Origin: Sparassis latifolia
Lineage: Eukaryota > Basidiomycota > Agaricomycetes > Polyporales > Sparassidaceae
Direction: 5' to 3'
Length of the DNA: 64,000 bases
Assembly (NCBI GenBank): GCA_018466975.1
Contig: CM031556.1
Coordinates: 2,790,001-2,854,000, forward strand
The translations under genes were made by a program, and so were the position numbers. The number at the start of each line of letters is the position of its first letter. Positions within the stretch are counted from its first letter, which is position 1. Positions 984 to 34,401 of this stretch are shown here, piece by piece. The notes beneath the pieces are model-generated. The model had not been told where the DNA came from. It made no database searches and saw only the letters and a list, made by a program, of their open reading frames with translations.

Positions 984-3485
984 ATGCTTGCAAGATCTGC
1001 GGGGAATGCTTTGTCAAAGCATGCAACTCCGGGCTTTCGCTCCAGAGCCTGTCTCAGATCCCACTGGAAGTCCGCCAGAGTCCTTGCTCGTTCCGCGACC
1101 TCTGTCTCGGTACCTGCCTCGGTCGACGATGCAGACATCATAGCCTTGTTTGACCATCCCTCATCTACACAGAATTCTACCTGTCACACACCAACTGGAC
1201 TATTCGGTTTTCCTGTCCTTACCACACCTTCTTCGTTCAATGCTTTAGCTGATTCCACCCTCCGTCGCGCCGAACTCCTGACTGATCGCGTACTTCGGGC
1301 ACGCGAATCTCGGAGCGAGCTGTTCAAGGTGGTGAAGAACTTAGATCGGCTTAGTAACTTGCTGTGTGGGGTCATAGACCTCGCGGAGCTTATTCGGAAT
1401 GCGCATCCAGACTCATCTTGGATACGGAGTGCCGAGGAGGTGTACGAGAAATTATGCGAGTTCATGAATGTACTCAATACACATGTCGGGTTGTACGAAG
1501 TGCGCATTTTAAGTCACCTTTCGCACTTGGGTGTCGAATTGAAGTCTGTTCGACCAGGTTTTACGAGCCGTACTGTCCGATGCCGATGTGGTAAAGTCCC
1601 TCAGTGCGGAAGCGCACCAGACAGCCCTCATATTCTGGCGAGACTTTGAGAAGTCCGGAATAGACCTTCCTCCCGATCAGCGCAATCGTTTTGTGTCGTT
1701 ATCGACAGAGATAATGCTGCTTGGCAGACAGTTCTTGAACGAGAGTGCAAGCCCTCGGCCTCCCGCTGCTATCGCACCTTCAGAGTTGCAAGGGTTGAAG
1801 GACTTGGGAATGGGTGCCAGACTAAGATTGCAAGCCCAGGTGACACAGCGAGATCTGCACGTTTACCCTGGTTCCATGCAAGCCCAGATGATTATGCGTT
1901 CCGCACCTTCGGAGGAGGCACGACGAAAGGTCTACATGGCAGGTAATACCAGTACACCCCAGCAAATTGCGATCCTGGAGAGGCTTCTGCATTCTCGCGG
2001 AGAACTTGCTCGGCTCGTAGGGAAAGAGAGCTTTGCCCACATGGCCCTGACCGACAAGATGGCAAAATCGCCAGGTGTGTCACTCCATCACTTCTGTCTT
2101 CCGTCTAATGCCTAGTCCGATATTCGCGGTTATCGCAGAACATGTACAATATTTCCTGGATGCTATCTTGGACCACACTCGCCCGTATGCGGAGAGCGCA
2201 CTGCGCGCGTTAAGCATGCGGAAGCAAGCACATCTTAATACGTCACCATTTCCAGTCATTCAAGCATGGGATAGGGATTATTACTGCCCCCAGAACCTCC
2301 TGCACCTCCCGTAACATTGCCGCCACTAACACTCGGTACAGTCATCATGGCCCTCTCACGGCTATTCAAAAACCTGTACGGCGTATCACTACAGCTCTCG
2401 GAAGCTGCACCTGGCGAGATCTGGGATACTGACGTGCGGAAACTCGAAGTTGTCGATGAGGAGACCGGCTTACTTGGCTGGATATACGCTGACGTCTTTG
2501 CGCGACGAGGCAAGCCAAGCGGTGCTGCACACTACACAGTACGATGTTCTCGCAGAACAGACGATGACGATGAGTTGGGGGACCTCGTACTAGCCGATGA
2601 GAATGACAAGGCGGTCGTGCAGATGTCCCGGGAGTTTGAGGCAACCCATCAACGTCGAATACCAGGGCAGGAAGGGGTGTTCCAGCTCCCAATAGTGGTG
2701 CTGGTCTGTGAGTTCTCGAGACCATCCATCCGTGGAGGGCCGACCATCTTGGAGTGGCATGAAGTGTTGACGCTATTCCACGAAATGGGCCATGCCATGC
2801 ACTGTAAGTTTCCGTACGACTGATCGTGCACCTCTTATGAAGTTCCATTTTATTAGCGATGATCGGGCGAACAGAGTACCAGAACGTCTCCGGCACACGC
2901 TGTGCCACAGACTTCGTCGAGCTCCCCTCCATTCTCATGGAGCATTTCCTGAATTCTCCGACAGTCCTCTCCCTTTTTGACCGTGACGGCACGGTCGACA
3001 TTCGCCAAACCGGTAACCACCACGAAGACCCCTGCCGCTCAATTGATACCCACACCCAGATCCTCCTCGCCTCACTCGACCAAATATATCACTCTCCGGC
3101 AGTGCTCAGTCCTAACTTCGATTCAACGGCCGTCCTAGCGAAACTATACGAGACGCGCGGTCTCATCCCTTACGTACCTGGGACTTCCTGGCAGACACAG
3201 TTTGGCCATCTCTTCGGGTACGGTGCGACGTACTATTCCTACATGTTCGACCGTGCAATTGCCTCACGCGTCTGGCGCAAGCTCTTTTCGCACGACCCAC
3301 TTAATCGGGAGACGGGCGAAAAGTATAAACGCGAGGTGTTGCGATATGGTGGTGGGAAAGACCCATGGTCGATGGTTGGCGCGTTGTTGAATGCTCCAGA
3401 ACTGGAGAGTGGCGATGCTGAGGCTATGGCGGAGGTAGGCAGGTGGAGGATCGAGGATGAAGTTGCGATGCCTGGAAGACATTGA
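984..3485 (+). CDS. OCT1: Mitochondrial intermediate peptidase (M3 metallopeptidase), one apparent frameshift
   Basis: Thimet-type zinc metallopeptidase that removes an octapeptide from imported mitochondrial precursors in the matrix. Exons read 984-1499, 1558-2074, 2139-2803 and 2857-3485, with introns of 58, 64 and 53 bp. The start [10 protein letters not shown] opens an Arg/Ser-rich mitochondrial presequence; the in-frame TTG at 960 is not used. The zinc motif HEMGH lies in FHEMGHAMH near 2780, followed across the last intron by the conserved block [13 protein letters not shown]. The predicted length is about 775 aa, usual for the family. Oddity: between DRDYYC and PPLTLG the frame changes by one base at the C-run 2287-2291, where six C would keep the frame and five are present. 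This is either an indel in the assembly or a real lesion. MIP beside the HD genes is the standard landmark of the agaricomycete A mating-type locus. Confidence 0.93.
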
Positions 3486-6138: not shown

Positions 6139-8244
6139 TCATGACGAGCCAATATCCGTAAACGAGGAAAGGGAAATGGTACTGGACGACCACTGCTTTT
6201 GCATCTCTGTCTGCTCAACCGTGTCGTCAAACAGCATGTCCGATCGTAGACTGTCTATCGGTGACAAGCTGTCCAAGAAACCTAGGTCCAGATAAGGGTC
6301 TGATATGGACGCGGACGACCAGACTTTAGGAGGGGGTAGAGGAGTAGGCGGTGGAGGAGGAGTAGACGGAGGACTCTCGGTCTCACTCGACGATGGGGAA
6401 CTTGACCCGGATGATACTGAGGTGAGGGATGACGAGCGCGAGCTTGTCCGTGAATACGGTGTGTATGAGAACTGGACAATATCTGGTGTCTGAGAGAAGG
6501 ACGTGTCTGAAGGTGCTTCTTGTCGGACAGAGCCAATCATTCCGCTCGAGACGGAGTATACGGACGCAGACGAAAACAATTGAGGCTGTAACGAGTCCCG
6601 AGGATCATGGTCGCTGGATATAGTAATCGGAATCGACAAAGGCGAGAGTGACATGGACGATGCTGCGGATGACGAGTATACATCTGACAACGCGGGCGAG
6701 ACGTGGCGGCGGTCAGTACTCGTGCTGGCAGGTAGGCGTGTCGGCAGACCAGCAGTCTTCCGACCAGGTCTGGCAACTATTGGTTGATGAGATTTAGGCA
6801 GCGTCGACTGCAGGACTGTCAAATCGTGTGCCGTCCACGTGGAGAAATCTGGAATGGCCTCCTGAGATGCTTGAAATCCTCGGGTAACGTATGTAGGAGA
6901 TGCCGAACTGACGACAGTGGTGGGAAGCAGGACGGGTGACGGTGAAGGTGGCAAAGTCGAAGACAAAACGACGTCGGCAGAAGGTTCAGGTTGTCTATTG
7001 CGCTCCCGGATCCGTGGTACACCAACGTACATGTCGTGTCGACAGTGGTTCTGCACTTCACCAATCAAAGTCATCTTGGCAAACATATCCGCGAGCTGAG
7101 TCATGCCAACAGACGATGAGTTATTGTGACGCGTGGTAGGCTTCCGAATCCAAGGTGATGCAAACCGACCGTTGCATTCTGCGATAGGAAATGGATCGTA
7201 GGAGCAAATGGGTGGGTACAAGGCTGGATATGCATGCGGAGGTGCTTTCAGAGGAAATTTGGTATTTCCTGCTGAAGGTGGGGGGAGTTCTAACGCGTCT
7301 GAGTAGGGCTATGAGAAGACGAGTAAGTGACTAACTAGGGAATCCCATAACCACACACCTGTTTAAGTTTTGCTGACTTAACATCGCATTCCTCTGCCGA
7401 TAGGATTGCCCAAAGCGACTTCTCCAAATCAGCAGGTAACGGCACAGAAGAGCCACTTCCTCCTTCTATCCCATCCTTCCCAGAGCGAGTTCGGCGGTTC
7501 TGAAACCATCGCTGGGCTTCAGAAAAAGAGTATGAACAGTATACCAACATACCAGGAAACTACTGCGGTCCGTACCGTTCTTCGCAACGGGATCCTGCTT
7601 CCCCGGTTGGGAAAAGAATAACTTGCGCTGGAGGAAGATCATAGACCACAGATACCAATATAAGAACGCAGACGTGAAGTTAATGACAAATAATTTCAAT
7701 TTACCTGAGTGAATTGGTGCCCACCCCGCTGAAGCTTCGGCGTAGGACAGTCATTATCATGCTTCTCGACTTGCCTGGCTTGTAAGACACGAGATCCAAA
7801 TCTGCTAACAATTTCATCCAACCAACATTGAAGCAACCGAGTATACTTTGCCGTATGAGCAGACTTCAGCAGCACCCGTAACCTAGGGAAATCGAGACGA
7901 TCCAAGTCGTCTCCCAGATGGAGACGACAAATGTCTCGATATTGCGATTCGAACGCTGCCTTTAATTCGGTAGCAACCTCCAAAAATTTATCCGAAAGCC
8001 GCCAAGCGGTTCCAAAGTCGAGGCCCACTGTAAGAAGATCGTACATAGGAGACCGTGGTGCAGGAAGAAGTATGGCCATCGCAGAGCCATGAGCACCTGA
8101 CGGCGACAACGGCGGCAGACTTTTTGAGGGAGTAGCATTCGGAACTGAATGAAGCAGACTGCGAGAAGCTGTGGCAATACGTCGTAGTAGATCGCCTTCT
8201 GCGGTAATCTGTTGTAGCAGATCGCCATCACAACGGGTCGACAT
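6139..8244 (-). CDS. HD2: HD2-class homeodomain mating-type protein
   Basis: A-locus homeodomain transcription factor, the partner of HD1. Read on the minus strand as exons 8244-7705, 7627-7553, 7511-7359 and 7308-6139, all junctions in phase 0, giving about 645 aa. The start is the ATG of MSTRCDGDLL; the longer frame from 8331 begins with TTG. Residues 1-180 resemble the HD2 N-terminal dimerisation region, with conserved Leu/Arg patterns such as LDRLDFPRLRVLL and TARY-like HTAKYTRLLQCW. The third exon carries homeodomain helix 3 with WFQNRRTRS, followed by PLPADLEKSLW, typical of HD2 proteins. Helices 1-2 are not clear: exon 2 gives only 25 residues (RKLFFSQPGKQD..) and the spacing to WF is about six residues short of canonical. 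The intron between exons 2 and 3 is only 41 bp, so that junction may be wrong. The long C-terminus is Ser/Pro/Thr-rich. Confidence 0.85.
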
Positions 8245-9023
8245 AGTTGGAGGATGAGTAGTGGGAGCGCTCGTCAAACCAAAAGGGGTCGCATTAATAG
8301 GTTGTTTGCAAGACTGGGGGTGTGCAAACAAGTCGGATACAACAAGTTGTCAATAAGAAAATACCTTGTCGTGGCTATTGTTCTATTTGGGATCTATACG
8401 GTATACGTAACACACCACTGTGGTATGACACTAGGCCCGTGGTCAAAAAATCTTGCACAAGCGGTCTTTGAGCGGTCTGCAAAAAAAGCTTCTGATAGGG
8501 GACCTTAGCCTTCGCATCTCGTCAAGATGCAAGGACATTTCGGACGCGAGTGGCTCAGGCTGCGCGGCTTGGTGGTACCACTGGCGCATACTGGCCCGGG
8601 TGCCACCGACCTGAGTTTCCGGAGCGTTTGGTTTCACAGCCCGCACTGTGAAGGGATTTTTGCAGGGACCTATCGATATGATCCCTGCTAGAAACAATGC
8701 GGCCATGGGCCTGTCTATGGGCCTGTTTCGGGTCCCAAATTCGATATGAGTTTGCAACGTTGGATCAGTTCCCACACTCAGTGTTACAGAGAGGTTTGTG
8801 AGGCCCATCGACGGAGGGGCACTGAGCGGACACTTGCTGGCAGTCAGATATTGCAGTACTCTTCTGTTGCACAGAAGGAGGCTCACCGTGGCATACACGC
8901 ATGTTGCCGGCCGTGGGAAGGATGTCGCGTATCGGCCCATTGTTCGTGTAGATCAGTCACAGTGTCACGGTGTCACGCCATGTACTTCAACACAGCACCG
9001 TAACGTGGGTCACAAGCTCCTCC
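8245..9023. promoter_or_regulatory. Divergent HD2/HD1 promoter region
   Basis: 779 bp between the HD2 start codon (8244, minus) and the HD1 start codon (9024, plus), so both genes must be driven from here. Short direct repeats are visible (GGGCCTGTCTATGGGCCTGT near 8706-8725, and GTGTCAC repeated near 8961-8977). A minus-strand ORF of 165 codons crosses the region but has no recognisable motif. No specific transcription factor site is claimed. Confidence 0.6.
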
Positions 9024-11877
9024 ATGATCGATTCGATTCGGCGTCGTGTACTTCAAGCTGAGGATGTATTCCTCTCAGCTCTTTCCGCTGGCTCTGCCGC
9101 AATCCAAAATTTCAGTCGCTTCTGGATAGCTCTTCACGGCGATGTCGACATCGCCTTACAGTCTAACGATATTGATGACGACCTGAAGTCGCTGATCTAC
9201 TTCACGTCAATCAGAGTGCAACAGGTGGCCGAAGGATGGTATGAGTTGGAGCTTACCAATGACAAAATAGTATCGTCTATGGTCGACGAATTAGAATCTA
9301 TTCTGGCGCAATTAACACTCGAAGATATAGATTCCGCCTCTTACCATACCCCTTTTTCCGAGTCCGCGAACGGTATGCTGTTTCCCCCCTTTTTTTGTGG
9401 TGCGATTAATTTGCATATCCGTCCGTAGAGGTGTCCAGTTCATCTGATGGTTCGAGAAAATTGCATGATATCGGACAGCAGAGCCCAGCAGTTGCAGGCC
9501 GATTTTCTCCACCATCTCGTGGGGCGTCACATGTACCTTCTGCGGTACCTGTGAAAGAAGACGAGGGCAAGTACACTGTGCCTTTGGAAGGCCGAAAACG
9601 AAAACGGGACTCTCCGTTTGATGACTGCAATCCATGGGTAGAGGAAAGTAAGGCAAAACGAACACGGTATGTGATGCATGGCTTGATCATGAGCTCCGGT
9701 TAATGTCAAACCAGACTTGAAACAACCGACCCCTGTAAGATCCAATCTGACGAGAATAAGGGTGAGTGGGATGTGCCTGTGGAAGGCCGGAAACGAAGAA
9801 GAGACCCCTCGTTAGATGACTGCGATCCGTCCGCAGTCGAAACGAAGAGAAAGGTGAAACGAACTCGGTGCGTAGTCCAAGGCCTGATCATGAGATTAGG
9901 CTGATGTCAAAGTAGGCTCGAGACTGCGGCCCGCGATTTCTGTGGGATCCAGAGTGACTACGAGGTGCCTGTAGAAGGCCAAAAAATAAGAAAGGATACC
10001 TCGCTAGTCGACTGCAGTCCGTCCGTAGTCGAAACGAGGGCACAGGCGAAACGAACCCGGTATGAAGTCCATGGCCTGACTGTGAGCTGGGCTGACATTG
10101 GATTAGATTTGAAACTGCGGTCGGCGACTCCTGCAATATTCAGGGTGTATACAATGTGCCTGTAGAAGACCGAAAACGAAGAAGAGATGCATTGTTGGAT
10201 GAGTTAATTGACTATGAGTCGTCCAGAGTCGAAAAGAAAAGAAGGGTGAAACAAGCTCGGTACGTAGTCGATGGTCTGATTGCGAGCTTAGGCTGACGTT
10301 GGACTAGATTTGAAGCTGCAATTGACGACTCCTGCGGAATTCAGAGTGCGCACGATGTGCGTGGAGAAGACCGAAGACACAGAAGAGTCGTCTCGTTAGC
10401 TGGTGGCTACAAACCGTACAGTCGCCCCGAAAAAGGGACAAAGCGAACCCGGTAGGTGGCTCCGCCGCGACCACAAGTCTGCTGATACTGATCTGGATCT
10501 GGATCTGTTTGCAGCTCGCATCTGTCGTCGTCTTTCGACTCCTACGGGATCGAGCTGCAATCTTCATCAGGGGAATATAATTCTTCCCCATCGGGCGATT
10601 CAGTCGCCCCCCAATCTGAGATAGCTGTCCTTCGTCAGGAGATGTCGTCTCAGACTAACATCCAGCCCTCATCCCCATTGAGGTCGGATCCAGACCCACC
10701 TGTTGTACAAGTAGCAGAGCTATCCAGCTCTAGTCAGCGGCGAAAGCGTCGTCTGTCTGACGCAGACGATCAACCCAAGCCTAAACGACCTCGTGGTCTA
10801 AGTGTTGCACCTCGGCAAAAATATGCAGTGTCAGACCCATTACCGTTACCAGTAACCTCTGGAAAGCATGACGGCCGATCCTTTAGCCTTGATGGCTGGT
10901 TTGAATCCCATTTCCGTATGCCGGAGAGTGTGTCTGCAGTGGAGTTAGATCCTTCAATTCCGGTAAGCGTAGAGGTCGATACCAATTGGGTTCCAGAGGA
11001 CGTTGGCCTACTGGGCGACGCAGCCATGAAGATACCAGAATCGAGTAAGCCACTATACTGGAGAATGTCAGTCGGAGCACTGAACTTGCATCTACCAGTT
11101 CCTGCTATCCGAGACGTCGTGCTACCTGCGGATATCGCCTTGCAGAGCGACGCATCCAAACTGTCACATCCATCCTTTGACTTTGCTGCGACCGGCGAAG
11201 ATATCGCAGACATACTGGAGGCCGCTATTAACGGACTGCAGTCCGTACCTGGAGAGGATGGAGGGTTTGTGGCCCCCCAAACCGAGCTCGATCTGTCTCA
11301 GACGGTCGATCTTTATATGCCTCCATCATCCACTGCCCCGCCCGACGTATTATCGACGGTTTCGGCGATGTCTGCTAAGGCAGATGTCCTGTCCCCGTTT
11401 ATTTTCTCGTCTTCAACCCCCTTTACCTTGGACTTGGAGCAGCAAGCAGCTGTCTCGGGGATTTCAGACGTTGCTGAACCCTCGCCGTTCGAGTTGAATG
11501 TGGCGCCTTTGCAGCTTGATCATGATGTTCCGCCTCCGCTGTATTCTTCGTCTCCACCACCATCGTTCCTCGAGAGTCTTTGGAGCACTGCGTCATCTGC
11601 AGCCTGGGATCCTTACTGGGAGCCGTTGGAGCAACCTTTCGATGGCGCTTCGCAAGGTGCTCCGCCGCCGTATTACGAACTTCAGGTTCTGGACGAGGTT
11701 CAAGGGCTAGATTTGAAGAATCCCGACGTTGCTGAAGTATTCGTGGACGACGGATCATGGGTTGACGCCGGCCAGTTAGAATCGAAGAAGCAGACGAGAC
11801 GCCAGGAATTGAATGTGGCCGCAATTGATCATGGTGCGTCACGATTTCCTTCCGGTTGTTCTCCTTATCGGGTCTAA
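9024..11877 (+). CDS. HD1: HD1-class mating-type protein with amplified basic exons and no visible homeodomain
   Basis: Exons read 9024-9372, 9429-9666, 9715-9867, 9916-10059, 10107-10259, 10308-10451 and 10515-11877, giving 847 codons with every junction in frame. The start is the ATG of MIDSIRRRVLQAED; the frame from 8970 begins with GTG. Residues 1-116 match the HD1 N-terminal dimerisation region (RRRVLQAEDVFLSALSAG..FWIAL). Where other HD1 proteins carry the homeodomain, exons 2-6 instead encode repeated segments of the form VPVEGRKRRRD..KRTR. Exon 7 has a further bipartite basic cluster (RRKRRLSDADDQPKPKRPR) and then a long acidic, Pro/Ser-rich region that could activate transcription. 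No WF..R homeodomain signature is present. The end is uncertain: splicing from GTGCGT near 11834 to an AG near 11896 would give an alternative stop at 11933-11935. HD1 and HD2 should bind each other only when they come from different mating types. Confidence 0.85.
9715..10514 (+). repeat. Tandem array of four exon+intron modules inside HD1
   Basis: Four consecutive units of about 191-207 bp, each an exon of 153, 144, 153 and 144 nt plus the intron that follows. The preceding exon's 3' half and its 48-bp intron (9560-9714) belong to the same family, making five copies. Introns of 48, 48, 47 and 48 bp are recognisably homologous (GTRYGWAGTCYAWGGYCTGA-like starts), while the last, 63 bp, has diverged. 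All junctions fall after the second base of an Arg codon, so exons are symmetric phase 2-2 and duplication keeps the frame. Each exon encodes a core VPVE-x-RK-x-R-R/K-D followed about 20 residues later by KxKRTR. Confidence 0.9.
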
Positions 11878-12195
11878 TCTTGCCTCCGGGATATTAGTAA
11901 TCGGATTACACGCTCCATTGCCTTTTGTGTCATGATCGTTATCTTATCACCCTCGGTCAAGCTATACCCAGCCTGCTCGCTGTCGCATGACGTCACGGCG
12001 TCGCTTTACTGCTCGCTCGATTGATGGCTATCTCAGCGATGTTGTAACCTTGGTCAGACCTGGAGGCCTGTTCACCCGTGCTGACCCGAAGTAACCCTCA
12101 GGCGGGTGTGATCGCAATCAAGTACCAGACTCGCCAAGTCGCGTCAATGGTCAACGGGTCATCGACCGTTTGACCACTGTTGACGCTATATACTC
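11878..12195. other. HD1 3' flank
   Basis: Non-coding apart from a possible last short HD1 exon ending at 11935. Contains the inverted pair GGTCAACGG/CCGTTTGACC near 12148-12177. No other feature seen. Confidence 0.4.
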
Positions 12196-13170
12196 CGCAT
12201 CCGTGGATGGATTCCACGTGCACTGTGCGCCCCGCGCCTGCTTGTAGATTCCACTTGCACTCACCGCCTGTGGATTCCACCTATACCCCCCGCCTGTGGA
12301 TTCCACCTATACCCCCCGCCTGTGGATTCCACCTATACCCCCCGCCTGTGGATTCCACCTATACCCCCCGCCTGTGGATTCCATCCCATCTATACTTTTC
12401 ACCCCTGGATTCCATCTATACCCCGCACCCGTGTATTCTGCAATATACCCTGCGTCCGTGGATTCCGCTCTGGACCCTGACCGCAGAACCTGCTGTATTC
12501 CCCGCGACCCCGCCTCCCCGGGGTGAACTCCACTATACACGCTTCGCCCTTGGCTTCCACCTATACCCCGCGCACGTGGATTCCGCTATATACCCCGCAC
12601 CTACCCGTAGATTCCACCTGTACTCTGCGCCTGTGGATCCCACTTATACTCCGTCCCTGTGGATTCCACCCCATCTATATTCCGCTCCCCTGGATTCCAC
12701 CTGCACCCCGCACGGATGCATTCTGCTATATACCCCCGCCCGTGGATTTCCCGGCGGCTATCGATCCTGACTGTGGAACCTGTTATATTCTCCGCGAGCC
12801 CGCCCTCCTTATGAATTCCGCTATACGCGCTCCGCCCTTGGATTCCACTACACTGCGCACTCGTGGCTTCCACCTATACCCTGCGCCCGCGGATTCCGCT
12901 ATATACCCTGCGCCCACGGATTCCGCTATATACCCTGCGCCCGCGGATTCCGCTATATACCCTGACTGCGGATCCAGCGATATTTTCCGCACTTGTGGCT
13001 TCCACCTATACCCTGCGCCCGTGGATTCCGCCATCTACCCTGACTGCGGATCCAGCGATATTTTCCGCACTTGTGGCTTCCACCTATACCCTGCGCCCGT
13101 GGATTCCGCTATACACGCTCCATCCGTGGATTCTACTGTATACCCCGTGCCTGCGTATTCTGCTAAACAC
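12196..13170. repeat. 1-kb GC-rich minisatellite with higher-order structure
   Basis: Degenerate tandem repeats built on GTGGATTCCACCTATACCCC. Near 12270-12375 the unit is 26 bp and four copies are nearly perfect. Downstream, units lengthen and combine: a 78-bp block starting at CCTGACTGCGG is repeated almost exactly at 12961 and 13039, and a longer block containing GAACCTG..CCGCGA..GGATTCC occurs near 12470 and 12770. Long ORFs here (proline/tyrosine-rich) are a by-product of the period and composition and are not called as genes. Confidence 0.9.
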
Positions 13171-13479
13171 CCAGAACGTGTGGGTTCCTCTATATATTCC
13201 TCGCTCTCTCACCTCCTCTTTCGGATTGCTTGCTGCTGTCTGCCAGGGAATTTTTGCCGTCTTCTGTAACGAAGCACTGAATACCCGAACAAGGAGCAAG
13301 GGGGTAGTCAGCGTTCGCTAATGCTGAAAACACCACAGCGACTCTGGTGTTGTGTCGTGAGGTCCTTCCAGACGAGTCTCTGTGCAAAGTCTCTCCGGGT
13401 ACTCTGGTCAATTGTCGCACTTCACCTATCAATTTCAGCTGCGCTAGATGTACGTAGTTTCTCTCCAACTTTATGTTGA

Positions 13480-14130
13480 AAGTACTGACTCTTTTGATCC
13501 AGATGATCACGTCTGGCCAAAGTGCCGTGGAGTTTTCAACATGCGCCGTGCTGGTGCGCAACATTAGACTACTGCCACTATTCAGTGCGAGACGTGAGCA
13601 GCACTTGGTCTTTGACGGATGGCTTGAGCAATACTTGCATATACCCCTGGTTGTATCAAATGTCGGTGCTGGATCCGTCCACTCCAGTTGATATCTGGCC
13701 TCAGCGCTCTCTCTAATGAGTGAGTTTAGCACAAGACGTCTTCAGACCTATGCTTACATCTCTTTTTATCAGTTTCTGTTGTTGAAGTCGTCCTGCGAAC
13801 GGTATCAGTTGACTTTCGTGGCCTGGGCCCTCCCTCTTCCCTACTAAACGGGGTGTTTTGACCCGTGGCGCCCATTGACCGCGGATGCTAGTACTGTCCG
13901 ATCAATTCTCCATCGCAACCGCAGACTTGGATCTCTCCTTGTCCGCTGTAAAGCCGACTGCTATCCCAGGGGTATCACATCTTACTCATAGCTGTCCATT
14001 CTCCTCGATTTTCATCACTCGCTCGAGCCAGTCACTGCCTCATGTATCTTGGGAACCTCACTGGAACACAGCGAACGGTTGCCTGATGTCGATTGTCCCC
14101 AGCTCATGCTTAAAGGTGGCAAAGACCTGA
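13480..14130 (+). pseudogene. Probable relic of a second HD1-like gene (C-terminal part)
   Basis: Short translated stretches in different forward frames resemble the C-terminal half of the intact HD1. Near 13600-13660, HLVFDGWLEQYLHIP parallels SFSLDGWFESHFRMP of HD1. In the next frame, VLDPSTPVDI parallels VELDPSIPVSV, in the same order and spacing. Near 14030-14060, SWEPHW parallels AWDPYWEP. No continuous frame links them. I infer a decayed HD1 paralogue or duplicated fragment, as expected in A loci that have gained and lost HD pairs. The similarity is short and judged by eye. Confidence 0.4.
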
Positions 14131-15111
14131 GAATTTGGAACATCCTCCGTTATCGGTCTCTTTATAAGTGATGGTACGTCACCGCACAATGCGTTCCAGA
14201 GCAAGCGGCGCACACCGGAGGAAACGAAGTTGATGACTAAATCCTGCGAGAGGGGCTGCTTGAAAATTTGACCGTCGACATAGTGCCTTTTCGTATGTTG
14301 CGATCCTAGTCTCGTATTTATCGCGTCTGATTTTCTGCTGCCCAGGGCACATCTCAACCGCCAGCAGCGTCTTGCTTGCGTCATTTACCATTTCTGTATT
14401 GTCGTTGTCCTGTCTCCTGCATCCGGGTTTCTTCATAACTAGACTGACTTGATTTTTCTCCTTTTTATCGTCGTTTTTCGCGCAATATACCTTGCTCGTG
14501 CTCCCGTTTCATGCACTGGTCGTTTGATGCTGAAGAGCAGAAGATGGATTGAAAATCGACAGCAGAATGTATCCTCGAAACAAGGAAGAAGGCGCGAGCA
14601 ACGTTACAGGGGCAACCTATGGCAATATGCAAGATAGATCAAGTTGTTCAGCACTCTCATTTGCGCCAAGTCAGTTTGCCAGCCGTCTCTTCTGCAGTCT
14701 GTGGCGCATCGCCAATGCCAGATCCTGCAATCGTCAGACGAGAAGACTTTTCCCATCAAGACGAACAACTTACAATAATGAGTTCGATAATGCCAACGCG
14801 TTTCACCTTGTAGCACGTATGAAGATGCTGACAATTATCCACCGCCGGGACGAGTGCGGCAAGATTGTTCGCTAGCGATTCCTCGCTTTCTTCCACAATG
14901 ACGGACTAGAGACGAAGACTTGGGCATTCAATAAATCAACACTCGTTGAACGACATGCTTTCTCACCAAAGTAATACTCCTCCTGGACAGCTGATCATTC
15001 GCGTCGCGGTAATCTACCGTTTGCTGACGAGAACACATATACAACAAGCACGGGACGTACTATATATATACAACTCACCATGAGGTCGACCGTGTCACTC
15101 GTTTTCTTGCG
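14131..15111. other. Spacer without supported gene
   Basis: Roughly 1 kb with only short overlapping ORFs on both strands and no recognised protein motif, RNA gene or repeat. Confidence 0.4.
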
Positions 15112-16764
15112 TCACCCATACGGATGGTATCTATTAAGATGCGAAGACCGATAGGAGGGCAGACGAAGCAGGTACTGAGGTTTAGAGGGAGTAACATGAT
15201 TGGGCATAGAATGAGTGTTCAAATTAAGTGACATTGGTGTAGCAGGTGGTAATAGAATGTGTTGAAGAACGAGAGCAAACAGCAAAAGAAAATCCAGAGA
15301 ATGCTTCAGATAGACGAGAATGCAGTGGGCGGAGGAAGAAAAGGTGTCGAATGGTTGGCTTAAAAACCCGTCTGAGCTGGATCCCGCCTCTAGTACATAC
15401 AAACTGGCCTCGAGTGCCGCAGGGCAAGACGCCCATCGGCACAAATGATGGCGACGATCCACACCGCGAGCTCCGAGTCGATCTCTGGCAGCACATTGGA
15501 CTGTACCCTGGCGTCAGCAATGGATTTCAAGGGCGGGCGGGTAAAAAGAGAAGGAAGGTGAGTCATCATATCGGTGAATTCAGGAATGTCTGGACTTTGT
15601 ACATTCCCTAAGGGAAGTAAATCTGGACAAGGTGGCATGCTGACTCAGTCACGGTGTCGACACCTCATACAAACACAGATACCTGTGACCCAAACCATCA
15701 GAGACAATCATACCAGCTCCTCCACTACGGCTGGATTCCCCCGAATCCACTGAACGATATCACGCACTGACTCGTGGAGACCGCCTTCGGAAACCACATA
15801 TCCAAAAACCTGCCCTGCTGTTCCGTTGGTATACAGTGCTCCGGCTCGCTGGAATAAATACAATGCCCTTCAGGCTTCTATGCATTTTCACTTATCCATG
15901 TACGTCTTTCCCTTCTGAGAATTGAACTTCTGAACCACGTCCCCAACACAATAGACGCACATCTGTATCTGTGACAGAAGGTGTGTCACGTCACGCCACC
16001 AAACTCATGAATGTGCTGAAACAACCCATTCGTCTGAACCAGAATTTAATCCCCAGATCTCAATCAAAGAGTGCAAGCTGAACATGACAGAAGATAATGA
16101 CAAATAACAAGGAGCTCCATTCCAAAAGACTGAATTAAAATGGAGATTCAAGACTCACTATCGGCGATTTTCCAAGTTGAAGTGACGGCAGAGTTCATTC
16201 TCGTTCGCTCAGTCCAGAGTTTAGCCCTATAGGAAAACCGTGGAAAGACAGATGCAAGTGTCGGTGACATCGCTTGCCCACAAGAGTTTTAGGGACAGGA
16301 GGCCATCGAGTGATGACTGCGTCAAGTACAACCCCGCCAGCTATTCAGACAAGACCTCAAGTACCGTCAATCCTGCCCGGAGCAGAGAGTGAAAGCAAGA
16401 TAGTCAATCGCCTGAATCGTTGTCCATCTGATGTCGTCACAGATTGTCAAAGGCGAGCCAGTCAACCGATGAGTGGTGAGCTTTCCGATAGCCAATGAAG
16501 TCTCCAACAAGGTGCAGAAAGGGGCCTTAATCGGTCTGCGAACAGCGATGCTTGTCAATAAATGAAGCAATTCAAGAGCAATATTATGGTCATTGTGATT
16601 AAAACTGTGAGTAGCGGAATACCAATTGTCGTCGTTATCGCATCCCACAGAAGATCGATTTCATCACAGCCTGGAACAGCCAGCGGCCACCCAGCCACCT
16701 TCACGATCCTCCTTTCAACGCTGCTCATCTCGTCAGAGATGTCCACAATTTTTTCTCTCCACAC
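15112..16764 (-). CDS. Multi-exon conserved-looking gene, possibly the A-locus beta-flanking gene; reading frame not fully resolved
   Basis: Several coding-like segments follow one another on the minus strand. About 16764-16640: DEMSSVERRIVKVAGWPLAV. About 16600-16370: RRPIKAPFCTLLETSLAIGK and IRWTTIQAIDYLAF. About 16230-16155: AKLWTERTRMNSAVTSTWKI, ended by a GTGAGT donor. About 15849-15712: RAGALYTNGTAGQVFGYVVS and HESVRDIVQWIRGNPAVVEE, flanked by good splice sites. About 15638-15400: MPPCPDLLPLGNVQSPDIPE, PLKSIADAR and ELAVWIVAIICADGRLA. About 15420-15300: ALEASLYVLEAGSSSDG. I do not recognise a domain. Position one step beyond the HD genes fits the beta-flanking gene (beta-fg) known from agaricomycete A loci, but that is a synteny inference. 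Some joins do not keep frame, notably before MPPCPD and after ADGRL, so the copy may be damaged or the exon boundaries may differ. Confidence 0.45.
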
Positions 16765-21910: not shown

Positions 21911-24900
21911 ATGGGGGCCCACAGATCAAAGGGAGTCTCCCGAACAGTCCGAGTCACCACCTTGGTTTCCTCGGCACGCTCATCTGCAGTCGGACAGCGC
22001 ATCAAGGAAGTCCATGGAACTGTGTATGGCATGACGGCAATTGCAAAGGAGAAAAAGAGAGCAGAAGAAATGCTCCTGCAAAATATTGCTGGTGAGTACA
22101 ACTGCCTTGTCCAAGGTTCGACACTCATCTCGTGAGTCGCAGGACTGAGTGCTGAGAAGATCCGGGCGCTCTTGGACATGCGGGGGGATTCTGTTGTAGA
22201 TGACAGTACGGACAACAACCAGCAGGACTTGCCAAGAACTGAGGAGGTGGGGGCAGCTGACGACATGGAATGGGAGATGCTACCAGATGATCTGCAAAAT
22301 GACTTGACGTTCACCATGGCATTCCGAGATATCGCGGGGTCGAAGTGAGTACCCTTTAGTATTCTTTGTACACTAATTTGTGACATTACATTCAGGTGGA
22401 AACCTCGCTGGTACAAAGATATGCGCACTTGGCGGCAACGTATGTGCCACCTGGACGAAAATTGGCAGCCCCTTCTCCCGAAACTTGTAGACGTGTACTT
22501 ATCCTGACGCTATGGTCCTGACCGACCAGCTGATGAACCTACCGAAGCAACCGCCAGCGCAGATGATGGCATCAACTACAACTTCGAAATCCCTGTCCTC
22601 GACATCTACTTGACTGTCAACTCCGCGTCAATCTGCCGACCTGCACACATCGAATCTGTCGCTGAAGCTCTTGTCTTCAATGGTTACCTCGGATCAACAC
22701 CCCTCAACCCAGGACTCGCAATCTCTCTCAAGACGTTAGAACTACTTCGCTGTATCAGGCTCTACAAGCCCTCATTCAGTATTGAAGCCTTTGCAAAACT
22801 CCTCTGTCATTTTTATATGGTGAGTTTACTGAAATCCCCCGAAAGTACTTGATAGCTAACCTTGCCACCTACAGATTCCTTTCCGTCGCCGCTATCATGC
22901 CGCGCTTGGTGATGCATTCGACATCTACCTTACGATTCTGCGCATGGTCTGCAAGAAGGTCCTTAGTGCACTGGGCCATGATACGCCCAACTGGCGAGCA
23001 TTAAATGGTTGCCCAGCTTGCGGATATGAGGTGCAAGTTTCACTACATGTAGCCTGCCTCGTACTGACCTTTTCTCTGTACAGCTCAAGGATGAGCCTTC
23101 GCTTGAATTCTTGCATATGTACTGCATGGACGGTAACAGTTCCCTCAAGCGGTTGGCTCCTGTGGGTGGGTGCCGCGCAGGAGATCTTCGGATGCTAGCC
23201 GACAGTGACTACTACCTTTCAGAAGACTTCATCGAGAAGTATGCCGATGAAGTGCAGTCGAGACGTACGCTGAACAAGGTCGACATACCATTGCACCGGG
23301 ATACCAATGAGAATGCCGAGAGCGACCGTGGTGAAGATCAGACACCGGATGGAGGCGATCCAACAGACAGCGATATGGGGCCTGTGTCTGGTTGCACCGA
23401 GAATTGGAAGGCTGCAGCTGCAGAAGAGAAGAAGATGTGGGGAGTCTTCGAGGAGACAGGTATATTTGCAAGTGCATGCAGGCACGGCCTTATTCTCTGG
23501 CTGATCAACATGGTTCGGAGCGGTGAACTGTAAGTATTTCTTTTATTTTCAAGGGATGGGCTGACAAATCTTCAACAGTGCTAAATATCCTCTCGCTATC
23601 GTCGCGAAGGCTATGGAAGTATTCAGACCTCACACACTGGCAGGCTACGACATTGGTTGCTCCTTCGAGCAGACCGTTCGTCACAGTTCACTTGGGCCAA
23701 CGTTCACCCACCTTCACTTGCGTTGCTGTGTCAACGCATTTCACGGTTACTCGCATTCCTACCCCTGTCAAATTCGATACCATCTGAACGTCATCAAAGG
23801 GATGAGCCTTGAAGACCTGGAGACGCTCGAGCGCATCTTCAGTGCTTCGAATCTGCTGGCTTCTGTCACACGCTACGCCTCCACCTTCCAGCGCCAAGTA
23901 TTTATTCTTCTTTTCTTCGAGCAGTGGGACAATGAGAAGTATTCAAATCTCGGCACGATGCTGTACAACAACTATAAGCAAGCGCTCGATATTATTCAGA
24001 CACAGTCTGTTGCTCTCGCAGATGTCATGGCATCTCTCGGTGTCTGCGATGAGGACCTCAAGCTGTTTGAGTTGGAGGAGCAACAGTATTTTGCAACACT
24101 TGGGCAGGAGCCGGAATGGGATGTCTATGCCATGGCATATGTCGAGGCACTACAAGAGCTTCGTGCAATAACGTGAGTGAACCACGACATCAATACGGCG
24201 CCATGCTGATCACATTTATATAGTACTCAAGTTGACGAAGCATCCTCACGGTTCCTCAATGCTATGCCAACTGACTACCAGTTCCTACCACCTACCAATG
24301 GTCCTACACGGTATGAAACGGAGATGTCGACTACTTGCAAGCTCGAGACTCGGCGGCGTTATTTACGAGAGTGTCTCAATATTTTGACGCAGGAAGTCAT
24401 TGCGATGGAAGTGAAGATGGGTATCACCAACCGTTGGCAGCCATCTGATGCCCCTTATGTCGAAACGGTCAAATATATAGCCACTCACAAGTATCAACTG
24501 GCATTGGGTAAGCTGCAGAGGCTTGTCATACAGCGGCTCTTTGAGCTACACAAGTTGAATCTCATGCAGATGGGTAGGTATTTTTCAGTGGATCCTATGC
24601 CGTCATTGTTAACTAATGCTTGAAATAATTAGCTTACCGTGTGCACACGCATATTGCCAAGAGCCTCCAGACACGCTGCAGGGCAATCCGAAATGCCGTC
24701 ACCTCATACAACATCGCAGCGGTGGCTCTGAATCCTCCACGCCCGACTCTTGACTGGGACAAGGTTTCTCACTACAGTTTTCTTGAAGAGTTCAACCTCC
24801 TGCACGATACCCGCCATGACATCCGTGAGAAGCAGTGGATGCAGCCAGCCATGTGGGAGACAATGCATCTCCACCGCCAGATCCAGCGTGAGCACGAGGA

Positions 24901-33554: not shown

Positions 33555-34337
33555 TCAAAATGCAACGTCTTGCAAATCAAAGGCAACCGACGCCTTTTCG
33601 GCCTTTGCCGAATTCCTTTCGTTGTACCTGCCCGGTAAGCGACAATCACGAGCAATATGACCACGCTTTCCGCAATTGTAACATTCCGCGTTACGATTTC
33701 GATTGTCACGTTCTTTCTGCGCGAATAATGCCGTATTCTCAACTTCTTTTTCATCGTCCGCTTTAGGCAATTCTCCGTGTCGTCCTTCTTCATCGACTAG
33801 AGCACCTGTCACATCTGCTATCTTCAGATCACCCTTGGTGGCTGTGAGTGTGCCCGCGATATTAGAGTAGTCCTCATGTAGATTGAATATAAGGACATCA
33901 GTAACATCTTTGTCTTCGAGCGCAACTCCAATGCTCTTCAACTTCGCTGCCAAATCGGTAATGCCGCTGATGTAATCCCAGATCGGACACTTGGGATCAT
34001 GCACGAAATTGTAGAATTGACGCTTGAGGGCGATTCGGTTTGCACGGCTATTTTTCTCGTAGACCGCCGCCAACGCTTTCCATGCCACCGGTCCATCCTC
34101 GCAATCACGAATGTAGCCGTACTGGCTCGGATCGACTGTAAGCCCGATCAGTGTGAGTCCATCTTCTGCTTTCTTCGGCCAGTCTCCCAACTTGTCTTCG
34201 GCAGGCTTCGACACCTTTCCACTCACAATGTCCCAGCACGCGTTGCGCCGCATGACCATGAAAACTGCAAATTTCCAGTCATAGTAATTATCTCCCGTGA
34301 GGGTCGGGAGCTTGACATGGGGACTCAGTGATGCCAT
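33555..34337 (-). CDS. Copia-type Gag polyprotein
   Basis: 260 residues from the ATG of MASLSPHVKLPTLTGDNYYD. The N-terminal LTGDNYYDWK and the central region (RANRIALKRQFYNFVH..YISGITDLAAKLKSIGVALED) match Ty1/copia Gag proteins of the UBN2/retrotransposon-gag type. A CCHC zinc knuckle CYNCGKRGHIARDC follows. The frame ends soon after the knuckle, where an autonomous element would continue into protease and integrase. It would form the particle shell and bind RNA; mobilisation would need enzymes from another element. Confidence 0.9.
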   Translation of the reverse strand: MASLSPHVKLPTLTGDNYYDWKFAVFMVMRRNACWDIVSGKVSKPAEDKLGDWPKKAEDGLTLIGLTVDPSQYGYIRDCEDGPVAWKALAAVYEKNSRANRIALKRQFYNFVHDPKCPIWDYISGITDLAAKLKSIGVALEDKDVTDVLIFNLHEDYSNIAGTLTATKGDLKIADVTGALVDEEGRHGELPKADDEKEVENTALFAQKERDNRNRNAECYNCGKRGHIARDCRLPGRYNERNSAKAEKASVAFDLQDVAF

Positions 34338-34401
34338 CTCGCATGATAAGATCGAGTGATAAGATATGAGGGAGAGATTAGATATGAACTAGTGTGAGCG
34401 T

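Follow-up and report, generated by a model that had tools for sequence, protein, structure and literature searches.

The stretch of DNA analysed here (the window, 64,000 nucleotides of the Sparassis latifolia genome) corresponds to C5:2790001-2854000 of an assembly of 41.4 Mb in 22 contigs, in which all genome searches were carried out. It contains a gene for mitochondrial intermediate peptidase (MIP), the usual flank of the A (HD) mating-type locus, and two divergently oriented genes of the HD2 and HD1 types, with MIP located beyond HD2 as seen from HD1 (Table 1). A MIP query joined from open frames of the window was 97% identical to the S. latifolia MIP record P0007, and 81% identical to the next best match. 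At about position 2285, the MIP coding sequence shifts frame at a run of five C relative to the S. latifolia protein, which represents either an assembly indel or a real break. For HD2, the minus strand carries a 389-codon open frame that should contain the last exon. Together with the domain evidence given below, this arrangement supports the assignment of the gene at 9024-11877 as an HD1-derived mating gene of the A (HD) mating-type locus of Sparassis. The identification as an HD1 mating-type gene put forward in a previous sequence-only reading of this DNA is upheld in this sense, on the basis of its divergent orientation to HD2 and its position beside MIP.

Table 1. Annotated features of the mating-type locus (positions counted from the first nucleotide of the window).
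Feature	Position	Strand	Length (nt)	Content and evidence
MIP (mitochondrial intermediate peptidase)	984..3485	+		Peptidase_M3; usual flank of the A (HD) mating-type locus
HD2 partner gene	6139..8244	-		Open frames 6139-7308 and 7696-8349; start codon from translation; named from position and helix III motif WFQNRRTR
HD1	9024..11877	+		Divergent to HD2; MIP beyond HD2
HD1 exon 1	9024..9372	+		N-terminal dimerisation-type domain (HMM, P0127 alignment, AlphaFold2 model)
HD1 intron 1	9373..9428	+	56	GT..AG and frame; position where homologs run on towards the homeodomain (alignment)
HD1 exon 2	9429..9666	+		SP-rich, acidic context resembling that before NLS1 of homologs (context by eye); NLS unit 1 (~9551-9666)
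HD1 intron 2	9667..9714	+	48
HD1 exon 3	9715..9867	+	153	NLS unit 2; symmetric; NLS1 HMM 22 bits on the frame
HD1 intron 3	9868..9915	+	48
HD1 exon 4	9916..10059	+	144	NLS unit 3; symmetric
HD1 intron 4	10060..10106	+	47
HD1 exon 5	10107..10259	+	153	NLS unit 4; symmetric
HD1 intron 5	10260..10307	+	48
HD1 exon 6	10308..10451	+	144	NLS unit 5; symmetric; basic segment decayed
HD1 intron 6	10452..10514	+	63	Diverged from introns 2-5
HD1 exon 7	10515..11877	+		Head (10533-10554) similar to those of the units; second bipartite NLS; C-terminal region with stop (NLS2 HMM, Mating_C, head HMM)

All six predicted introns of HD1 are of the GT..AG type, and joining the seven predicted exons yields a protein of 847 amino acids followed by a stop, in agreement with the 847 open codons previously noted. 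Retention of any one of the six introns leads to an early stop. Splicing at these junctions is predicted from the sequence. Removal of the whole array as a single large intron was considered and rejected, as exon 1 joined to exon 7 runs into a stop after 152 codons. As long as exon 2 is kept, all 16 keep/skip combinations of exons 3 to 6 remain open in silico; none of the 16 does when exon 2 is skipped. In-frame skipping of exons 3 to 6 is therefore possible. The symmetry of these exons results, however, from the presence of one intron within the duplicated segment, and thus provides no evidence for regulated skipping. Alternative splicing and allele-specific copy number, suggested in the sequence-only reading as means of tuning nuclear import or dimer strength, would be hypothetical modes of control. 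Phase-2 introns and symmetric modules had been claimed throughout, which applies to exons 3 to 6 (phase 2-2) but not to exon 2 (phase 1-2).

Several features were noted downstream of HD1. The DNA shortly after it (12243-13172) is rich in tandem repeats, with arrays of 26-27 bp and 78 bp detected by Tandem Repeats Finder. The sequence at 13572-13695 encodes VFDGWLEQYLHIPL and then, after a frame change, LDPSTPVDI, and is probably the relic of another HD1 C-terminal piece. Its match to the S. latifolia HD1 protein P0127 (BKA93DRAFT_757812) had a tblastn E value of 0.023 when the whole window was searched, and of 1.7e-5 for a 95-aa piece of P0127 against positions 13000-14500, a region chosen afterwards. 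Pieces of a KDZ transposase and of copia-type gag are found further on, at 23565-24173 and 33558-34388.

Domains retained and missing in HD1 and HD2

The domain content of HD1 was assessed with HMMs built from 39 HD1 proteins, a set from which P0127 and six short or fragmentary proteins were left out. The N-terminal HMM scored 70 bits on the window HD1, the product of exon 1 is 39% identical to the N-terminus of P0127, and an AlphaFold2 model of 9024-9371 consists of three helices with a mean pLDDT of 89. A fold search with this model gave nothing significant (best E 0.55). The Pfam Mating_N profile reached 14.8 and 18.3 bits on the window HD1, under its cut-off of 21.4, and had zero matches genome-wide. 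Sequence and model together point to the N-terminal helical dimerisation domain of HD1, through which the protein would be expected to dimerise. At the other end of the protein, exon 7 gave 80 bits with the NLS2 HMM and 29.9 bits with Mating_C, above the cut-off of 22.5, in a genome search for which this was the only match returned; Mating_C was not listed by hmmscan of the whole joined HD1 protein. The C-terminal region characteristic of HD1, with its nuclear localisation signal (NLS) and Mating_C, is thus present.

By contrast, the TALE-type homeodomain of HD1 proteins was not found. The best score of the homeodomain HMM over all six-frame open pieces of at least 20 aa between 8401 and 16000 was 5.5 bits, which is noise, versus 87.6 bits on P0127, and a Pfam scan of the HD1 protein up to E 10 listed neither a homeodomain nor any DNA-binding domain. 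Since this HMM search gave only noise, we rejected the possibility that the homeodomain lies in a different frame or further on, as far as 16000. The HMM for the segment following the homeodomain matches neither the window HD1 nor P0127. Used as a query against the genome, P0127 retrieved the two ends of the window HD1 (its N- and C-terminal parts) and nothing else; as far as these searches show, the homeodomain part does not appear to have been simply placed elsewhere in the assembly. The Homeobox_KN profile found one place over its cut-off in the genome, on contig C9, which we interpret as a TALE gene without a role in mating. The homeodomain genes found elsewhere in the assembly (on contigs C2, C5, C7, C9 and C12) were dismissed as the missing HD1; some of them are taken to be non-mating genes. 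A row of several homeodomain matches at C5:3262500-3271500, some 466 kb away from the mating locus, is probably part of a non-mating multi-homeodomain gene. The window HD1 hence seems to have lost its homeodomain, an absence that went unremarked in the sequence-only reading.

The homeodomain of the neighbouring HD2 is also incomplete. Within 7510-7710, only helix III is recognisable, with its motif intact, and helices I and II were not found in the frames and splicings tried. Applied to the open frames and to 25 splice models that stay open, the HD2 homeodomain HMM reached no more than 7.6 bits, compared with 27-73 bits in five leave-one-out controls. With Pfam, the helix III piece scored 14.3 bits, short of the cut-off of 22.9, and two other HD2 splice models gave no match; a genome-wide search with PF00046 listed 13 places, none of them in the window. 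With such an incomplete homeodomain, a DNA-binding HD2 would therefore have to come from the other allele.

The array of NLS-like exons

Five homologous units, formed by the tail of exon 2 and by exons 3 to 6, follow one another within 9429-10451, the 5' part of exon 2 being unrepeated. Masked self-BLAST of the joined HD1 protein gave unit-to-unit matches down to E 1.7e-16, and at the DNA level 9715-10107 is 70% identical to 9951-10308 (E 2.9e-36). This homology, far beyond chance, confirms the previous description of five tandem exon-plus-intron units with introns of 47-63 nt. Introns 2 to 5 are mutually alike in the unit alignment, and intron 6 is unlike them. The units have diverged to the extent that repeat finding caught the array only as two 3-copy families, and Tandem Repeats Finder did not list it. 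In a codon-free DNA alignment, gaps inside the unit exons measure 3, 6 or 9 nt, not counting one of 29 nt at the place of the unit head missing from exon 2, whereas among the introns there are differences of 1 and 2 nt as well. A plain minisatellite was rejected in view of the Tandem Repeats Finder result and of the difference in gap sizes between exon and intron parts. Among the matches listed in the search of the 41.4 Mb genome, none of the repeat unit was returned outside HD1.

In ordinary HD1 proteins, the homeodomain is followed by an acidic stretch and a motif RKRR..KRxR, as seen in the alignment of homologs. The NLS1 HMM for this region scored 22 bits on the frame of exon 3 and 18.5 bits on the single copy in P0127. 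On the joined HD1 protein it detected unit 2 (17.1 bits), unit 1 (4.6 bits) and unit 4 (1.3 bits), and units 3 and 5 were not listed. On this comparison, the counterpart of the HD1 unit in ordinary HD1 proteins is their first bipartite NLS region, and the proposed resemblance of the units to a nuclear localisation signal is thereby borne out. The basic segment RKRRRD..KRTR, said to be added by every module, has decayed in unit 5 (exon 6); the basic end reads KRTR in four of the five units and KQAR in the remaining one. Classical bipartite NLSs have linkers of 10-12 residues. The pattern applied to HD1 was looser, i.e. two basic residues and a linker of 10-20, followed by five residues of which three or more are basic. 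It matches the window HD1 six times, once in each unit and once in NLS2. Across 46 homologs, one match was found in 5 proteins, two in 15, three in 23 and four in 3, counts that do not all represent NLSs since the pattern also catches basic helices. Basic segments are no proof of import, and the repeated segments are best described as putative nuclear import signals. Some internal repeat was evident by masked self-BLAST (E up to 1e-3) in 6 of the 46 homologs, in no case an array of this type.

Clues to the origin of the unit come from its head. The heads of exons 3 to 6 are alike, but unlike that of exon 2. An HMM built from these four was used to scan 8401-16000 on the top strand; it found the four themselves and then, weakly, the head of exon 7 (10533-10554, E 0.084). 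Single heads compared with the first 80 nt of exon 7 gave shuffle p values of 0.064 (exon 4), 0.0095 (exon 5, at a different offset), 0.011 (exon 6) and 0.38 (exon 3); over the whole of exon 7, the heads of exons 3 and 4 find better matches elsewhere than at its start. In P0127, the single NLS is followed by KRPR LQSESCEI...ASCQISD, which by eye looks like the same head. As the unit head resembles the start of exon 7, tandem duplication across an exon-intron-exon junction is its likely origin, and there is moderate support for a unit made up of an exon 7 head and an exon 2 tail.

The copies also bear signs of selection on the encoded protein. Among units 1 to 4, dN/dS was 0.33-0.55 in all six pairs with dS of 0.60-1.03, and pairs involving unit 5 gave dN/dS of 0.31-0.89. 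A Fisher test on two non-overlapping unit pairs, chosen by the analyst, yielded p 0.0065. The interiors of introns 2 to 5, the only ones compared, differ by 0.21-0.68, somewhat below dS. As judged from these substitution rates, units 1 to 4 are well diverged copies in which the protein is kept better than expected without constraint.

Possible function of the HD1 allele

We lean, with some reserve, towards an HD1 allele that lacks the homeodomain, has its first NLS region amplified to five, and contributes import and activation to the HD1-HD2 heterodimer. The homeodomain and the segment following it would have been lost from the part of the protein that joins the N-terminal dimerisation domain to the first NLS region. 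Tandem duplication would account for the five copies, the duplicated segment comprising the NLS-coding tail of exon 2, the intron after it and some 45 nt at the beginning of the next exon. Every duplication would give rise to a new in-frame spliceable exon composed of the head of the next exon and an NLS. The resulting HD1 would pair with HD2 from a compatible nucleus and carry it into the nucleus by means of its repeated basic signals, sequence-specific DNA binding being left to the HD2 of the other nucleus. For the window HD1 we infer splicing, import, dimerisation and the way in which tasks are shared with HD2, as well as the route of duplication and the order of events.

Such a division between HD1 and HD2 has been reported for Coprinopsis. 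The HD1 homeodomain of Coprinopsis cinerea is reported to be dispensable, with the NLS located on HD1 and not on HD2 (PMC4915694, available text), and a defect in the homeodomain of HD1 does not necessarily lead to loss of function where the HD2 homeodomain works, according to a further report (PMC4101180, available text). The window allele fits this pattern by analogy, as the parts for dimerisation, import and activation appear to be kept or multiplied and DNA binding to be lost, and it looks like a natural extreme of the Coprinopsis situation, in which HD1 reportedly supplies import and activation. It is tempting to speculate that neither gene of this allele encodes a complete homeodomain, with HD1 as a pure import-and-activation subunit strengthened by duplication of NLS exons, HD2 retaining helix III only, and the allele working but being switched on only by a partner with an intact homeodomain. 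We regard this extension as rather improbable; if true, two alleles both without a complete homeodomain should be incompatible whatever their N-termini.

Other explanations of the array were considered. Neutral tandem growth, i.e. expansion of a duplication-prone one-intron segment in a recombination-poor mating locus with the extra in-frame copies tolerated but functionless, is in keeping with the tandem-repeat-rich DNA shortly downstream, the decay of unit 5 and the internal repeats of some kind in homologs. It accords poorly with the low dN/dS among units 1 to 4, with the restriction of unit-exon gaps to multiples of three next to introns that also differ by 1 and 2 nt, and with conservation of the basic end in most units, and we consider it unlikely. 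Alternatively, the basic repeats could stand in for the lost homeodomain by offering a surface that binds DNA or phosphate; several basic clusters along a flexible chain would make the HD1-HD2 pair bind DNA more strongly, and would not serve import. Homeodomain loss and gain of basic units did affect the same part of HD1, and the second NLS in exon 7 could already provide for import. The unit, however, matches NLS1 in homologs whose homeodomain is retained, and therefore has an older role separate from that domain; this, along with the failure of the permissive Pfam scan to list any DNA-binding domain in HD1, renders a substitute binding surface decidedly unlikely.

Finally, the homeodomain-less HD1 and the HD2 with its broken homeodomain could be the remains of a locus losing function, for instance in a self-fertile or asexual line. 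The incomplete HD2 homeodomain and the relic of another HD1 C-terminus would be expected of such a locus. Yet the seven HD1 exons are open throughout, a frame of 389 codons that should contain the last HD2 exon is open, units 1 to 4 show constraint, the predicted N-terminal fold is confident, and S. latifolia is reportedly tetrapolar. We hold degeneration of the allele to be very improbable. If the import and activation reading is correct, the window allele, with its homeodomain gone and its import signal multiplied, and the P0127 allele, with a homeodomain and one unit, form a contrasting Sparassis pair. These two alleles bear on how import and dimerisation set mating-type activation, and on whether alleles specialise into binder and carrier. 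The HD1 array would also offer a readable case of new exons born through tandem duplication across an intron.

Comparison with other HD1 genes

The window HD1 shares with the HD1s of Agaricomycetes (Serpula, Gyrodon, Suillus and others) the locus, the divergent HD2, the N-terminal helical domain, two NLS regions and the C-terminal region. It differs from them by the absence of the homeodomain and by an NLS1 region of five exon copies instead of one. P0127, which most likely comes from the same locus as the MIP record P0007 since both lie on contigs of equal length (878231), was the best match of the NLS2/C-terminal search, and its N- and C-termini are 34-40% identical to those of the window HD1. 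Unlike the latter, P0127 has kept a TALE homeodomain (Homeobox_KN 36 bits), with a recognition helix altered to WFEDVR, and a single NLS1 unit. Allelic HD1s can be very unlike, with 8.95% protein identity reported in Polyporus umbellatus (PMC11766841, available text). The sequence difference between the window HD1 and P0127 is therefore not in itself unusual; the difference in architecture is.

The HD1 of Grifola frondosa, a fungus that like Sparassis belongs to the Polyporales, is described as having a C-terminal domain and one NLS without a DNA-binding domain, and an exon array is not reported in the available part of that paper (PMC10607315). The HD1 homeodomain is degenerate in a1-1 of Pycnoporus cinnabarinus and the motif was not found in Postia placenta, a defect comparable to that of the window HD1; NLS amplification is not reported for either in the available text (PMC4101180). 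The genome paper of S. crispa lists HD1, HD2 and MIP, and its available text does not mention a missing homeodomain (PMC6207663). Two to four NLSs are reported for HD1s of Hypsizygus (PMC8686365, available text). The sequence-only reading held that no HD1 of this structure had been described. This stands for the exon array, in that no description of NLS exon amplification in HD1 was found in the available text of the literature searched, among the matches listed, but not for an HD1 without a DNA-binding domain, of which Grifola is an example (PMC10607315). The clearest repeat among the homologs is that of the Plicaturopsis crispa HD1s P0155 and P0161, which like the window HD1 feature an internal duplication in the NLS part. 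In these two, known from proteins only, the duplication consists of one extra half of NLS2, and the homeodomain is kept.
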